DNA of 64,000 nucleotides. Origin: Parapedobacter lycopersici. GTDB taxonomy: Bacteria > Bacteroidota > Bacteroidia > Sphingobacteriales > Sphingobacteriaceae. This document shows positions 45,776 through 51,236 of the stretch, piece after piece; within the stretch, counting starts at the first letter, position 1, and every line of letters starts with the position of its first letter. The stretch lies in NCBI RefSeq assembly GCF_024643285.1, contig NZ_JAMSLW010000001.1, positions 803,239 to 867,238 of the forward strand, written 5' to 3'. A program made the translations under genes and the position numbers. The notes under the pieces are model-generated. The model saw only the letters and a program-made list of their open reading frames with translations. It was not told the DNA's origin and made no database searches.

Positions 45776-45814
45776 AATTTGTTATGAATTAAAAAAATAA
45801 AGTCAAAAAAAGAA

Positions 45815-45849
45815 GCAAGACCACGTCACCGTTTGGGACGTGGCCTTGC
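45815..45849 (-). terminator. Terminator of the S9-kinase-regulator operon
   Basis: A 13-bp stem (45815-45827 with 45837-45849), complete in the minus-strand RNA if one G-U pair is allowed, then a long T-rich run. It follows the response regulator gene and precedes greA. Confidence 0.8.
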
Positions 45850-45928
45850 TCGTTTACACGAAGATAGAGAATCTTTTTGAATAAAACAAAAAAAGCCAAC
45901 GAAATACGTCAACCCGTAGTTATCGTAT

Positions 45929-46624
45929 TCAATTGGGATTATTCACAAACTTATATCCCATGCCCCGTACCGTCTGCAGGTAAGCAGGTTTGTCCGGGTT
46001 AAGCTCAATCTTCTTACGCAAACGAACAATATGCATATCCAGTGTGCGGGTGTTTACATTGGAACTATATCCCCAAACTACCTGCATCAGTTCATCCCTG
46101 CTGATCACCCGGCCTACATGCTGCAAAAAATACAGCAGGATCCGGTTTTCAAGGATTGTTAATTCAATTTTTTTGCCATCCCGGACCAGGGAATGAATGT
46201 TGGGGTGGTGCTCGGTGTCGCCGAAGGCGTATAAATCCGCCCCCTGGCTGTTAATAAAATACTTGATTTTATTTTCGATCATCGCCACCAGCACGTCCAT
46301 ACTGAATGGTTTGGTAATGTAGTCAGACACACCGAAACTATATGCATCAATCTTGTCGATGTCCTGCGACTTCGCAGTCATCATGATGACCAGGTTAGCG
46401 AAGCCGCTTTTCCGGAGGTTATCACAGATATCGGACCCCTGTTTTCCCGGCAGCATCCAGTCCAGCAGCACGATATCCGGCTTATGCTCCAGTATCATCG
46501 CCTCTGCCTCATCGCCATTACCTGTCTGCAAAATTGAATAGCCTTCCGATTCCAACCGATGCGAAACGAGAAACCGCAAGTTTTCATCGTCTTCCACAAC
46601 CGCTATTTTGATGTTATTATGCAT
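45929..46624 (-). CDS. OmpR-family response regulator
   Basis: 231 residues. The receiver domain has acidic EDD at 11-13, phospho-acceptor Asp55 (LLDWMLPG) and the switch Lys near 106 (TKPF); a winged-helix DNA-binding domain occupies about 130-228 (HVGRVISRDELMQVVWG, VRLRKKIE). It is phosphorylated by the sensor kinase encoded just upstream (42-base gap) and should control transcription. The first gene of the same unit is an S9 peptidase-like lipoprotein. A terminator follows at 45815-45849. Confidence 0.94.
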   Translation of the reverse strand: MHNNIKIAVVEDDENLRFLVSHRLESEGYSILQTGNGDEAEAMILEHKPDIVLLDWMLPGKQGSDICDNLRKSGFANLVIMMTAKSQDIDKIDAYSFGVSDYITKPFSMDVLVAMIENKIKYFINSQGADLYAFGDTEHHPNIHSLVRDGKKIELTILENRILLYFLQHVGRVISRDELMQVVWGYSSNVNTRTLDMHIVRLRKKIELNPDKPAYLQTVRGMGYKFVNNPN

Positions 46625-46666
46625 AATTAATTGCTATTTTATTGTTGGGTATCTGTTGTTTTAATT

Positions 46667-48337
46667 TTAGTCTGTCGGAAATATAATCTTAAACGTCGTT
46701 CCCTTTCCCAACTCACTTTCAACTGAGATGGCACCGCCTAAAAAATTGACCAGTTCTTTACAAAATGCTAATCCCAGCCCCACACTGCCCTGTTGATTGT
46801 ATTGATTCTGTACCCGATAGAATTTCTTAAAAATATGCGCCAGCTCATTTTTCGCTATCCCGATTCCCTGATCCTTAAATTGTATTTCAATATTCTTCTT
46901 CGAATCACTCACAATAATACGCAACGTTTTATTGTTTGGTTTGGAGTATTTATATGCATTATCGATGAGGTTCTGGAATATGCTGTTCAGCAGCACCGGA
47001 TCAGTATATAATACCCGTTCCGTTTTAACCGTACACTGAATGGCAAGATCAGCATATTTTATACCGGATGCAACCAGTATTTTATCGCAAAATTCGTGCA
47101 AATCAATATCTTCCCGCTTTATTTTAATCGATTTATTTTCAATCTGCGTAAAAGAAAGCAGCGTATTCATCAAATTATTGAGCTTGTCCGCTTCTTCATC
47201 CAATATTTTCCCGTAATGCATCCGTTCCCCATCAGATAGCTGCTTGGCGTGATGGATATTATTACCTGCAATTTTGATTACGCTAACCGGGGTTTTGAAT
47301 TCATGGCTCAGGTTATTTATAAAGTCATATTGCAACTTGAACATGCGCTTGTTCACATACAGATTACGGTATATTAAGTAAGCAATAATAGCTAATAATA
47401 GGTATATCGCCAAAACACTTGCCATTACCGGCAAAAACCGGCGGTTGACCTCGGTACCCAGAAATGAGCGGCTGGAACTGAAATAGATTTTATAGTCGGC
47501 CAACGCGCCCGGCAACGGTGTTTCCGTTGAAAGGAGGTCGGGATTGGTATCAATCGACTCATACACCAACGGCAGGATCTGTACACGCTGGTACAGTTCG
47601 GGAACGGTATTCTCCAACGATAATTTATTGGGGTCAATAAAAAAAGTAAAAATATCCTGTTCGTAACTTGTCTCATGTGGATGTTTACCGTACATCAACT
47701 CCTTATACACCTTCAGGTCATTCCTTCTGGGGATATTCATGTAGGAAATTTTCCCGGGGTTTACGGAATAAAAGACCTTAAATATATCGTCGTTATAAAC
47801 ACTTTTTGCCGTATCAACCCGTTCAATAAACGCAGCAAATTTAACCGCCATATTATTAAAGTCGTCCGAGAGGGAAAGCGGAAACTGTCCATGTCGATTA
47901 GGCTCTACCGTTGTTTCGGAAGTGGTATCGGGGGCACGGAACACATACACACCCTTCGGATTAATCACTAGGTTATTGGCCGAAAAACCGCGGTTTACCA
48001 GGGGGTCATTGCTTAACGACACATCGTAAAAAACAATCCGCTCAATAAATGGATAACTCTTCAGCACGCTATCGACATACGTATATACACTGGACGAATC
48101 CAGGTAACCCTGGTAGAATGATATTTCGGGAATCCGATTATGAAAGAAATCATTGAATGGCGCTATATTATGTTCAAGCACCTCGGTTTTTCTGGATGTA
48201 AACTCATTTTCGACGTACTTAACCGTCAGGTCACGGGCCAGGAAGACAGCCAGCACAAAGGAAGTAATGACGACCAGGATAAAGGCAATAACTAACGCAT
48301 AGTTTTTGCGATACGTATGGCGTTGCTGCTGCTTCAT
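46667..48337 (-). CDS. Membrane sensor histidine kinase
   Basis: 556 residues. Two membrane helices (about 14-36 and 304-324) flank a periplasmic domain of about 265 residues with no recognised family. There is no HAMP domain: the kinase core begins at once, with His345 in NLSHEFKTP, N box NLIDNAYKYS, and G boxes DQGIGIA and GSVGLGLAF. It starts 6 bases after the S9-like lipoprotein gene, so both are surely co-transcribed. The large periplasmic domain could contact that lipoprotein. Partner of the OmpR-type regulator downstream. Confidence 0.93.
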   Translation of the reverse strand: MKQQQRHTYRKNYALVIAFILVVITSFVLAVFLARDLTVKYVENEFTSRKTEVLEHNIAPFNDFFHNRIPEISFYQGYLDSSSVYTYVDSVLKSYPFIERIVFYDVSLSNDPLVNRGFSANNLVINPKGVYVFRAPDTTSETTVEPNRHGQFPLSLSDDFNNMAVKFAAFIERVDTAKSVYNDDIFKVFYSVNPGKISYMNIPRRNDLKVYKELMYGKHPHETSYEQDIFTFFIDPNKLSLENTVPELYQRVQILPLVYESIDTNPDLLSTETPLPGALADYKIYFSSSRSFLGTEVNRRFLPVMASVLAIYLLLAIIAYLIYRNLYVNKRMFKLQYDFINNLSHEFKTPVSVIKIAGNNIHHAKQLSDGERMHYGKILDEEADKLNNLMNTLLSFTQIENKSIKIKREDIDLHEFCDKILVASGIKYADLAIQCTVKTERVLYTDPVLLNSIFQNLIDNAYKYSKPNNKTLRIIVSDSKKNIEIQFKDQGIGIAKNELAHIFKKFYRVQNQYNQQGSVGLGLAFCKELVNFLGGAISVESELGKGTTFKIIFPTD

Positions 48338-48343
48338 GCCGCC

Positions 48344-50233
48344 CTACTTTAGGTACTTGTCAAAAAATTGACCAAGCTTCCGGTAAAACATGATCCGGGT
48401 TTCCTCATTATGGAAATACCGGCCCTCTTCCTCACGCAGCATATAGGTAACGGGGATTTGCCGCTTTTTTAGTTTTTGCACAAACTGGTTGGTTTCGTTT
48501 ACGGTACTCCAGCTGTCCTTGCCGCCCTGAGCGATAAAAACAGGAATCCGGATGCTGTCAGAATAAAAAACCGGCGACATTTCCTTGATCAGGTCAGGTT
48601 CCCGCTCCGGGTTCCCAACGATCTCGTAATACATCTGCAGGTAAGGTTTCAGGTGTGGCGGAAATTCCTTCAGGTAAGTAAACAGGTTCGTAAATCCGGC
48701 ATACGATGCCGCACAGGTATATAAATCCGAATTAAAACACGCGCCATGGAGGGCCGAATATCCGCCAAAGCCTGAACCGTATATCCCAATACGCGCCGAG
48801 TCCACAATCCCCTCGCCGATCAGCCATCGCACGCCGTCGGTAATGTCGTCCTGTACCTTGCCCCCCCATTCCTTAAAGCCGGCAGTCCAGAAGGCCTTGC
48901 CATAGCCGCCTGACCCCCTGTAATTCAGCTGGAAGACAGCATATCCGCGACTGGCAAAGAATTGAACTTCCGGATTAAACTCCCACTTAACACGGTCGCC
49001 CGGACCATTATGCGGATACACAATAAGGGGTACTTTTTTGCCTTTGTGCCAGGTCGGCATGGTCAGGTAGCCCTGGATTTCCCGGCCATCGCGCGAATGG
49101 AACTTAACCGGTTCCATAGCGGCCATCGTCCGCCCGTTCAGGGCCGGGTTGTCATCCGCCAGCTTAACCAGGCTGTCTTTGACAATGTCATAGTAATAAA
49201 CAGCGCCCGGGTCCTTGTCGGTATAAGAATGCACGATAAAACGGTTATGCGCCGTATCCCGGTCGATTATGTCAATTTCATACCCTTTGAGCTGCTGTTC
49301 AATTGCCCGGTAAACGCGCTCTGACCGGGCGGTCAGGTAATGCCTGCGCTGCTTCCATGTCGAATAAAGCGCGTAAGACATCTCACCCCGATCACTGGAA
49401 TACCCACCGTAATCAATATCCACGTCGGGGTGACTGTAAATCTCCCGCACCTCTTCACCCGTTTTCATATCAATCTCCACCAGCGCGAGTTTGTCTCGGT
49501 TTACGTTGGAAAGCGCAAAAACATGGCTCTTATGCTCGCGCGAAAAGCCCAGCGGGTTAATCGATGTTTTAAAGCTATTACTCAATACTGGCCTGAACTT
49601 TTCCCGTTCACTGTCGCGGTACAGCATGGTTTCCTGCACGCTGTCGCTGGCCAGCGCCAGTCGCAATTCGCCGTTCTGGTCGGCATACCATTTAATAATA
49701 TTGCCCGGATTTTCGGCCACCAGCTCTTTCTTGCAGGCATCGGTATAAAGCCGATAAACATCAAATACCGAGGAGTCGCGTTCATTAAGGGATACCAGGA
49801 GGCCATTATTCTGCACCTTGGCAGGTGAAATCCAGCGCAATTTCACTTTTGACGGCTGCATGAGGAGCCGCACGGCCGACGAAGTACGGTTTACACCGAA
49901 TACGCGAAGGCTGTCATCAAAGTACTTATCCTTGGTGAATATCAGTTCATCGTTATCCGCCCAGAAATAGGAATGAATTCCCATATCCGTTTCGGATGTA
50001 ATGCGCGTCTCCTTGTTGTTTTCGTCGAGGCTGATGACGTAAATATTCTGTTGGCCATTATACAGGCCCAAATAAGACACGTATTTTCCGTTCGGCGATA
50101 ACTGGAACCCGACTTTCTCCGAAGAAGAAAAAAAATCCTCTACCGGGATCTGACGGCCTTTCCTGTTATCGCATGCCCCCAAAAGGGCAGCGACAGCCAA
50201 AACGATCAATAATTGTACATAATTACGCACCAT
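48344..50233 (-). CDS. S9 (prolyl oligopeptidase)-family lipoprotein with altered catalytic residues
   Basis: 629 residues. A lipoprotein signal with Cys21 (LLGACD) precedes a beta-propeller region (about 25-360) and a C-terminal alpha/beta hydrolase domain. In active relatives the nucleophile elbow is GxSxGG; here it reads GSGFGG, so the nucleophile position (488) is Gly, with a Ser one residue earlier. The acid Asp573 (GGKDSW) remains, but the EGHGF-type His position (605) is Arg in EGRYFH. Two of three catalytic residues are thus missing, which suggests a dead peptidase that binds rather than cuts peptides. It heads an operon with a sensor kinase and response regulator, so a role in signal detection is a reasonable guess. 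Confidence 0.85.
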   Translation of the reverse strand: MVRNYVQLLIVLAVAALLGACDNRKGRQIPVEDFFSSSEKVGFQLSPNGKYVSYLGLYNGQQNIYVISLDENNKETRITSETDMGIHSYFWADNDELIFTKDKYFDDSLRVFGVNRTSSAVRLLMQPSKVKLRWISPAKVQNNGLLVSLNERDSSVFDVYRLYTDACKKELVAENPGNIIKWYADQNGELRLALASDSVQETMLYRDSEREKFRPVLSNSFKTSINPLGFSREHKSHVFALSNVNRDKLALVEIDMKTGEEVREIYSHPDVDIDYGGYSSDRGEMSYALYSTWKQRRHYLTARSERVYRAIEQQLKGYEIDIIDRDTAHNRFIVHSYTDKDPGAVYYYDIVKDSLVKLADDNPALNGRTMAAMEPVKFHSRDGREIQGYLTMPTWHKGKKVPLIVYPHNGPGDRVKWEFNPEVQFFASRGYAVFQLNYRGSGGYGKAFWTAGFKEWGGKVQDDITDGVRWLIGEGIVDSARIGIYGSGFGGYSALHGACFNSDLYTCAASYAGFTNLFTYLKEFPPHLKPYLQMYYEIVGNPEREPDLIKEMSPVFYSDSIRIPVFIAQGGKDSWSTVNETNQFVQKLKKRQIPVTYMLREEEGRYFHNEETRIMFYRKLGQFFDKYLK

Positions 50234-50691: not shown

Positions 50692-51236
50692 ATTTTATAT
50701 CAACTCCCATCGACGGCCTCCTGGTTATCGAACATCAGGTATGGGAAGACAGCCGCGGCTTTTTTATCGAAACCTACAACGAAAAACCGTTCCGCCTGAA
50801 CGGGGTCAATGAAACATTTGTCCAGGACAACCTTTCCAACTCCCGCAGGGGTGTGTTACGGGGCATGCACGCCCAAAGCGGACCGAATGCGCAGGGTAAA
50901 CTGGTACGGGTGCTTCGCGGCAGCGTACTGGATGTTGCGGTCGATATCCGAAAAGATTCCGCCACCTACGGACAGCATTTTTCCATTGAATTAACGGAAC
51001 GCAACGCCCGGTCGTTATGGATCCCCAAAGGGTTCCTGCACGGATTCCTCGCACTTGAAGAAAACACGTTGTTTGCCTATAAGGTAACCGGGTTTTACGA
51101 TAAAGATGGTGAGATAGGCGTACGGTGGGACGACCCTGAGCTAGGGATCACCTGGCCGATTCCGGAAGACCAGCTCATCGTTTCCGACAAGGATCGGCTG
51201 CTGCCTCTCCTGCACGAAATCAATAACCCATTTTAA
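50688..51236 (+). CDS. rfbC: dTDP-4-dehydrorhamnose 3,5-epimerase
   Basis: 182 residues of the RmlC cupin family. The RGFFIETYNEK, FVQDNLSNSRRGVLRGMH and GFLHGFL segments are conserved, with the active-site His in LRGMH and a Tyr in FAYKVTGFYD. It makes dTDP-4-dehydro-L-rhamnose for surface polysaccharides. It stands apart from rfbA, rfbB and rfbD, which must be elsewhere. Its stop codon overlaps that of the convergent DUF983 gene in TTAA. Confidence 0.95.
   Translation: MNFISTPIDGLLVIEHQVWEDSRGFFIETYNEKPFRLNGVNETFVQDNLSNSRRGVLRGMHAQSGPNAQGKLVRVLRGSVLDVAVDIRKDSATYGQHFSIELTERNARSLWIPKGFLHGFLALEENTLFAYKVTGFYDKDGEIGVRWDDPELGITWPIPEDQLIVSDKDRLLPLLHEINNPF

Follow-up and report, generated by a model that had tools for sequence, protein, structure and literature searches.

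Why should a lipoprotein with the fold of a prolyl oligopeptidase, but with two of its three catalytic residues replaced, be encoded immediately ahead of a sensor kinase? This question arises from a three-gene cluster on the minus strand of the window, by which we mean the whole stretch of 64,000 nucleotides analyzed here. We have examined the residues of the lipoprotein, the distribution of the gene cluster, and the history of the active site to evaluate whether this protein is more reasonably viewed as an enzyme, a passenger, or a component of the adjoining signaling system.

Organization of the gene cluster

The first gene (48344..50233, minus strand) codes for a predicted S9-family (prolyl oligopeptidase type) lipoprotein of 629 amino acids, to which PF00326, AlphaFold, and Foldseek assign a beta-propeller and an alpha/beta-hydrolase domain. 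Its signal peptide (50171..50233, minus strand) ends in the lipobox LGA-C (Cys21). Among 154 operon orthologues, 151 have this Cys and three (L129, L244, and L245) have no residue at the column, such that the Cys is present in all 151 that fill it. The sensor histidine kinase (46667..48337, minus strand; 556 amino acids) begins 6 bases past the S9 stop codon and carries Pfam HisKA and HATPase_c domains. It is followed by an OmpR/PhoB-type response regulator (45929..46624, minus strand; 231 amino acids) with Response_reg and Trans_reg_C domains. The open reading frames, coordinates, residues, and 6-base gap of this unit are as the preliminary description had given them. Matches to the kinase and the S9 tree point to Parapedobacter species as the nearest named relatives.

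That description also placed a terminator at the end of the unit, and folding agrees. The stretch between the regulator and greA (45796-45862) includes a strong hairpin with a T run after it (-30.9 kcal/mol, z -6.5), which is a probable terminator before greA (45803..45851, minus strand). A consensus terminator scan missed this hairpin and listed only a weak stem there (45915-45893); its total was three terminator-like sites, compared to a shuffle mean of 6.2. Because the corresponding promoter scan lists no site from the S9 start to position 50700, and its total of 10 promoter-like sites equals the shuffle mean, it is from gene spacing that we infer a single transcript for the S9, kinase, and regulator genes.

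The kinase is predicted to expose a large periplasmic sensor domain (residues 34-318; 47384..48238, minus strand), with the topology inferred from sequence. The 285 residues of the window's copy match no Pfam family at E up to 1. When 20 members of the sensor domain were scanned, seven unrelated Pfam families were each matched by one member. The AlphaFold model (pLDDT 85.0) gives weak Foldseek hits with TM values of about 0.3-0.4, none with E up to 0.001. Ligand-binding domains from chemoreceptors and from kinases stand out in the first ten, and we take these to be dCache domains. A dCache-like fold is thus treated as a lead from the model and not as a result. Sequence comparison of this domain with solved structures produced one chance-level hit (E 0.26), and no NCBIfam name was found at the cut-off among the matches listed for the kinase (25 of 79) or the regulator (25 of 95). 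The system shares a standard kinase core and regulator with PhoB/OmpR-type two-component systems, but differs from them in its sensor domain, which has no Pfam match in the window and was encountered only in its own family in a sample of 295 genomes.

The window S9 protein lacks two residues of the catalytic triad

Codon reads and alignment place Gly488 (GGC, 48770-48772, minus strand) where the nucleophile Ser is expected and Arg605 (CGG, 48419-48421, minus strand) where the catalytic His is expected, while the triad residue Asp573 (GAC, 48515-48517, minus strand) is kept. The closest solved relative by both sequence (phmmer, E 7.5e-40) and fold (Foldseek match to 5l8s_A, E 1.6e-38, TM 0.79) is the acylaminoacyl peptidase 5l8s, which is presumably active and is not known to be linked to a kinase. 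In the phmmer alignment, the Ser of its GxSxGG motif pairs with Gly488, its His with Arg605, and its Asp with Asp573; on the basis of established S9 knowledge we take these to be its catalytic residues. Thus, 5l8s keeps a Ser-Asp-His triad that the window protein does not. The overall architecture is otherwise well supported, with a PF00326 score of 130.9 bits (cut-off 22.6) and a complete propeller/hydrolase fold predicted by AlphaFold (pLDDT 92.4). Judged by the triad, the protein is homologous to S9 peptidases but is not predicted to be one, which upholds the original proposal of a pseudo-peptidase.

An alignment with active S9 proteins and homologues had been suggested as the way to examine this proposal. 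Gly and Arg at positions 488 and 605 are common to all eight relatives in the genus, and the alignment reveals no substitute Ser or His. Specifically, Ser487 and His608 were considered as replacement catalytic residues and rejected, given that neither is kept within the genus (0/8): the Ser487 column is Ala and the His608 column is Arg in all eight other members.

The S9 gene is linked to the kinase across Sphingobacteriaceae

The order S9-kinase-regulator is present in 21 of 21 relatives chosen by their S9 protein, whereas no kinase or regulator was found near the eight non-orthologous S9 loci of this sample. When loci were instead chosen by the kinase sensor domain alone (the best 80 of 327 confirmed relatives), the S9 gene lies directly upstream of the kinase in the same gene order in 80 of 80, with the S9 gene truncated at a contig end in L078 and L129 and the regulator side cut in L099. 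Both approaches show the three-gene order to be conserved beyond what chance would give.

Among all fetched loci with both genes, there are 155 non-redundant pairs, where L078 is counted with a partial S9 gene and L231 and L233 with a single S9 fragment apiece. S9 and kinase genes share a strand in all 155, with a median gap of 6 bases and a gap of -10 to 30 bases in 149. Values outside -20 to 40 (L031, 43; L044, -155; L078, -56; L175, 189; L231, 500) arise mostly from start-codon choice or from cut or broken genes.

Genome-wide counts give the same picture. The kinase sensor domain occurs in 196 of 201 family genomes, with one copy in each, and in 10 of the 295 genomes of a class-wide sample, all ten of which belong to this family. 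S9 matches at E up to 1e-120 are found in 189 of the 201 genomes, every one of which also has the kinase (189/189); at this threshold, no family genome was found with the S9 gene and without the kinase. The other 12 genomes comprise five with the kinase and no S9 gene, one with a shortened S9 gene (L155), one whose S9 gene is truncated at a contig end (L078, genome G168), and five with neither gene. One genome of this last group is rated 100% complete and four are rated 71-83% complete. The three-gene unit is conserved across the family.

The kinase can nevertheless persist without the S9 gene, as it does in one genus. In the five genomes of this genus (L150-L154, about 1.7-2.0 Mb), the kinase and regulator are present, and the S9 gene is missing from its place, which is flanked by the kinase gene and by a divergent gene for an exported TPR-like protein, as in a natural deletion. 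These five loci are not counted among the pairs above. A kinase FastTree with a midpoint root clusters this genus with relatives that hold an S9 gene with an intact triad, and thus its S9 gene was probably lost. In addition, two loci of the Sphingobacterium genus group (L231 and L233, contig count 1) have an S9 gene split over two reading frames, next to a kinase of full length, and this split reflects either decay or sequencing error.

Repeated loss of the triad within the operon

The 154 non-redundant operon S9 proteins include 34 with Ser-Asp-His, 106 with neither Ser nor His, and 14 mixed cases (12 with His and no Ser, two with Ser and no His). This set combines the best 80 of 327 kinase matches with genomes hand-chosen across genera, the most diverged S9 proteins included, and because the sample is not random, the 34 of 154 should not be read as a frequency in the population. 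Proteins sharing their last 350 residues with an earlier one were counted once (38 were so merged at one step). The broken L231 and L233 are left out, and the contig-cut L129 and L244 and the shorter frames L155 and L245 are retained. A set of homologues mostly intact and unlinked to the kinase, which had been named as the outcome that would count against the pseudo-peptidase proposal, is not what was found: the triad is present in 34 of 154 copies and the link is kept.

Gly takes the place of Ser in 110 of the 154 proteins (the window protein counted), followed by Arg (4), Asn (2), and Glu (2). Where Ser is present it is encoded by AGT or AGC in 36 of 36 cases, one step away from the Gly codons GGT and GGC, and Gly suits the strained nucleophile elbow. 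Asp573 is retained in 151 of the 154. Most loci named Sphingobacterium fall with the window into a 42-row clade, in which position 605 is Arg in 38 rows and Lys in four, with nothing else, and from these sequences Arg or Lys at 605 is read as a new local constraint. Perhaps these side chains form a new salt bridge to Asp573.

The minimum number of changes between intact and not-intact states is 14 on both S9 trees and 13 on the kinase tree. If only losses are allowed, the three trees require 15, 15, and 16 triad losses, or 13, 10, and 11 after collapsing weak branches. We therefore estimate about 13-16 losses, and conservatively 10-13. Counts for Ser alone (26-28 by loss only, 14-20 after collapse) run too high, owing to two copies with Ser that sit within groups of Gly copies, and were not used. 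The 94-row tree omits L129, L155, L244, L245, and L246 as well as rows less than 25% different with equal state, the kinase trees omit L099, whose kinase is cut, and FastTree warned of long branches meeting in the S9 tree.

S9 homologues outside the operon keep the triad in 48 of 48 examined (8 plus 40 loci), and therefore triad loss goes with the kinase-linked gene. The 40 loci were hand-picked from the S9 match list in favor of matches covering the triad, and one further end-cut frame has no Ser column. Because orthologues with an intact triad occupy the same operon position, catalysis was lost repeatedly inside an operon that was already linked, which amends the original proposal.

A candidate accessory subunit of the kinase

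From genomic evidence we propose, as somewhat more likely than not, that the S9 lipoprotein is a non-enzymatic, membrane-anchored accessory subunit of the kinase. The protein would be made beside the kinase and held at the membrane by its lipid, and its propeller/hydrolase body would regulate the kinase, with either sign, through a presumed contact with the large periplasmic domain. Its input might be a carried ligand, such as the peptide of the original proposal or an envelope fragment, or the protein might report its own localization or abundance; the regulator would then alter transcription of target genes. Catalysis would be an ancestral extra that is unneeded for the regulatory role, and therefore could be lost again and again. 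This proposal draws support from the linkage, the lipobox Cys, purifying selection, the repeated losses, and the complete predicted fold. Moreover, an S9 gene that occurs only with the kinase, while the kinase sometimes occurs without it, is the one-sided pattern that one would expect of an accessory part. Against the proposal stand the kinases without S9 in L150-L154, the broken S9 genes of L231 and L233, and covariation between S9 and sensor domain that is unspecific.

More broadly, we give about even odds to a history in which the cluster is a family-wide three-component sensor whose full-size peptidase became an extracytoplasmic subunit that senses for the kinase before catalysis was dispensable. 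The triad would then have been independently dropped ten or more times, leaving living lineages at every stage: triad intact, Ser lost and His kept, both lost, and gene lost.

One possibility that is compatible with an accessory subunit, although we hold it only tentatively, is that two modes coexist, wherein the signal is processed by intact enzymes but only bound in dead lineages. The 34 intact copies among 154, and the constraint seen in five pairs of intact copies at dS up to 1.0, fit this idea. However, the kinase and gene order are common to intact and dead copies, and no substrate or activity is known.

The main rival is that the S9 protein is an output rather than an input: a binding protein or chaperone of the periplasm, the amount of which is set by the two-component system through control of its own operon, and which makes no contact with the kinase. 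Operon linkage accounts for the co-occurrence of the genes equally well under this explanation, and the persistence of the kinase without S9 in one genus is also in its favor. Covariation analysis did not single out the kinase sensor domain. Rates of S9 and sensor domain covary with a partial r of 0.49 given the kinase domain and regulator (69 rows), and S9 gives 0.04 with the kinase domain and 0.43 with the regulator. With the other part given, covariation with the sensor domain is 0.27 for the S9 propeller and 0.09 for the hydrolase part. Among 38 rows, the exported TPR-like neighbor covaries with the sensor domain at 0.41, compared to 0.31 for S9, and given the TPR-like protein the S9 signal drops to 0.17 (p 0.054). 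We therefore rejected this covariation as evidence of contact, since the TPR-like neighbor exhibits the same pattern and the regulator also covaries. However, a target gene might be expected to sit elsewhere sometimes, whereas the best S9 matches occur only in kinase genomes (189/189) and adjoin the kinase in the pairs read. On balance, we consider the output explanation possible but improbable.

We also sought an interface among the residues changed in S9-less kinases. Conserved columns are changed at 7 of 27 positions in the sensor domain and 6 of 93 in the kinase domain (p 0.009), but 4 of 18 other clades used as controls also reach p 0.011 or less (for example, 4/27 versus 0/92 and 6/27 versus 2/91). 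This candidate interface was rejected because the changes are not clearly beyond those in other lineages.

Selection acts against a third explanation, in which the gene is a relaxed relic, or decaying passenger, of the operon. Consistent with decay, S9 is absent in one genus, its frame is broken in L231 and L233 and shortened in L155, and several S9 branches are long. However, Nei-Gojobori omega is 0.016-0.066 for eight pairs of dead copies and 0.046-0.076 for five pairs of intact copies, all with dS up to 1.0. Some of these pairs share a sequence, seven of the eight dead pairs come from the Sphingobacterium clade and none from Parapedobacter (in which dS between copies is close to saturation), and the remaining pairs have dS above 1.3 or are beyond computing. 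Low omega in the dead pairs indicates that dead genes are under constraint, about as strong as that on intact ones. Given also that 189 of 201 genomes keep the gene, with the lipobox Cys in 151/151 and Asp573 in 151/154, a relic is quite unlikely. In the dead copies, the largest drops in conservation are at positions 511, 527, 548, 575, 581, 605, and 620, together with the C-terminal 70 residues.

Finally, continued enzymatic activity through another residue is the least probable reading, despite the retained hydrolase fold and Asp573, since the window's Ser487 and His608 are lost even within the genus and the pooled dead copies gained no conserved Ser, Cys, or His (only Tyr278 and Tyr536), a comparison by which a clade-confined substitute would be missed.

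Parallels in other systems

QseG is a small lipoprotein unrelated to the S9 family. In the enterobacterial QseG-QseE-QseF system, this lipoprotein binds and activates the kinase QseE, as established by experiment, and it is encoded with the kinase and regulator as in the window gene cluster (PMC12691602). In contrast, the candidate accessory protein of the window is a full-size pseudo-peptidase.

A second parallel concerns the fold. According to two reports (PMC4873792, PMC4350108), DPP6 and DPP10 are inactive S9B proteins that serve as Kv4 channel subunits, in which the nucleophile Ser is changed to Asp (DPP6) or Gly (DPP10). These sources further describe fly DPP10 as both a channel subunit and an active peptidase, whereas mammalian DPP10 has Gly for Ser. 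Like the window protein, DPP6 and DPP10 are S9 propeller/hydrolases with the nucleophile replaced, a resemblance of kind and not a shown descent from S9B. They differ in being animal transmembrane proteins with a channel partner, whereas the window protein is a bacterial lipoprotein encoded next to a kinase, its candidate partner from genomics, and in most copies of this family the His is lost too. By analogy, the system may be comparable to both QseG-QseE and the DPP6/DPP10 channel subunits.

In the open-licence literature searched, we found neither this operon described nor any S9 pseudo-peptidase reported as the partner of a bacterial kinase. What appears to be new is an S9 pseudo-peptidase as a candidate part of a two-component system with an accessory lipoprotein, in which repeated inactivation can be traced with unusual clarity: one orthologous gene, kept next to the same kinase, has lost its active site many times under continued selection. 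The S9 protein is thereby a candidate part for a two-component system found in 196 of the 201 Sphingobacteriaceae genomes searched, for which a named function was not found among the NCBIfam matches listed or in the literature searched. The natural variants allow one to ask what a non-cutting peptidase fold does for a sensor kinase, and whether enzymatic and signaling roles are separable, as described for fly versus mammalian DPP10.

Variation around the operon

The divergent exported TPR-like protein, about 600 amino acids in length, is encoded upstream of S9, between it and a DUF4286-like gene, in 44 fetched loci (within L031-L051 and L060-L139, where a genome may contribute more than one locus); the window is without it. 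Two more S9 paralogues (L055 and L056), near which no kinase or regulator match was found, are present in a member of the window's genus (genome G007). They are 33-35% identical and have intact triads. The shortened S9 protein noted above (L155:4389-5900) is 503 amino acids long, apparently because of a shortening within the propeller as read by eye, and it keeps the His and has Gly for Ser.
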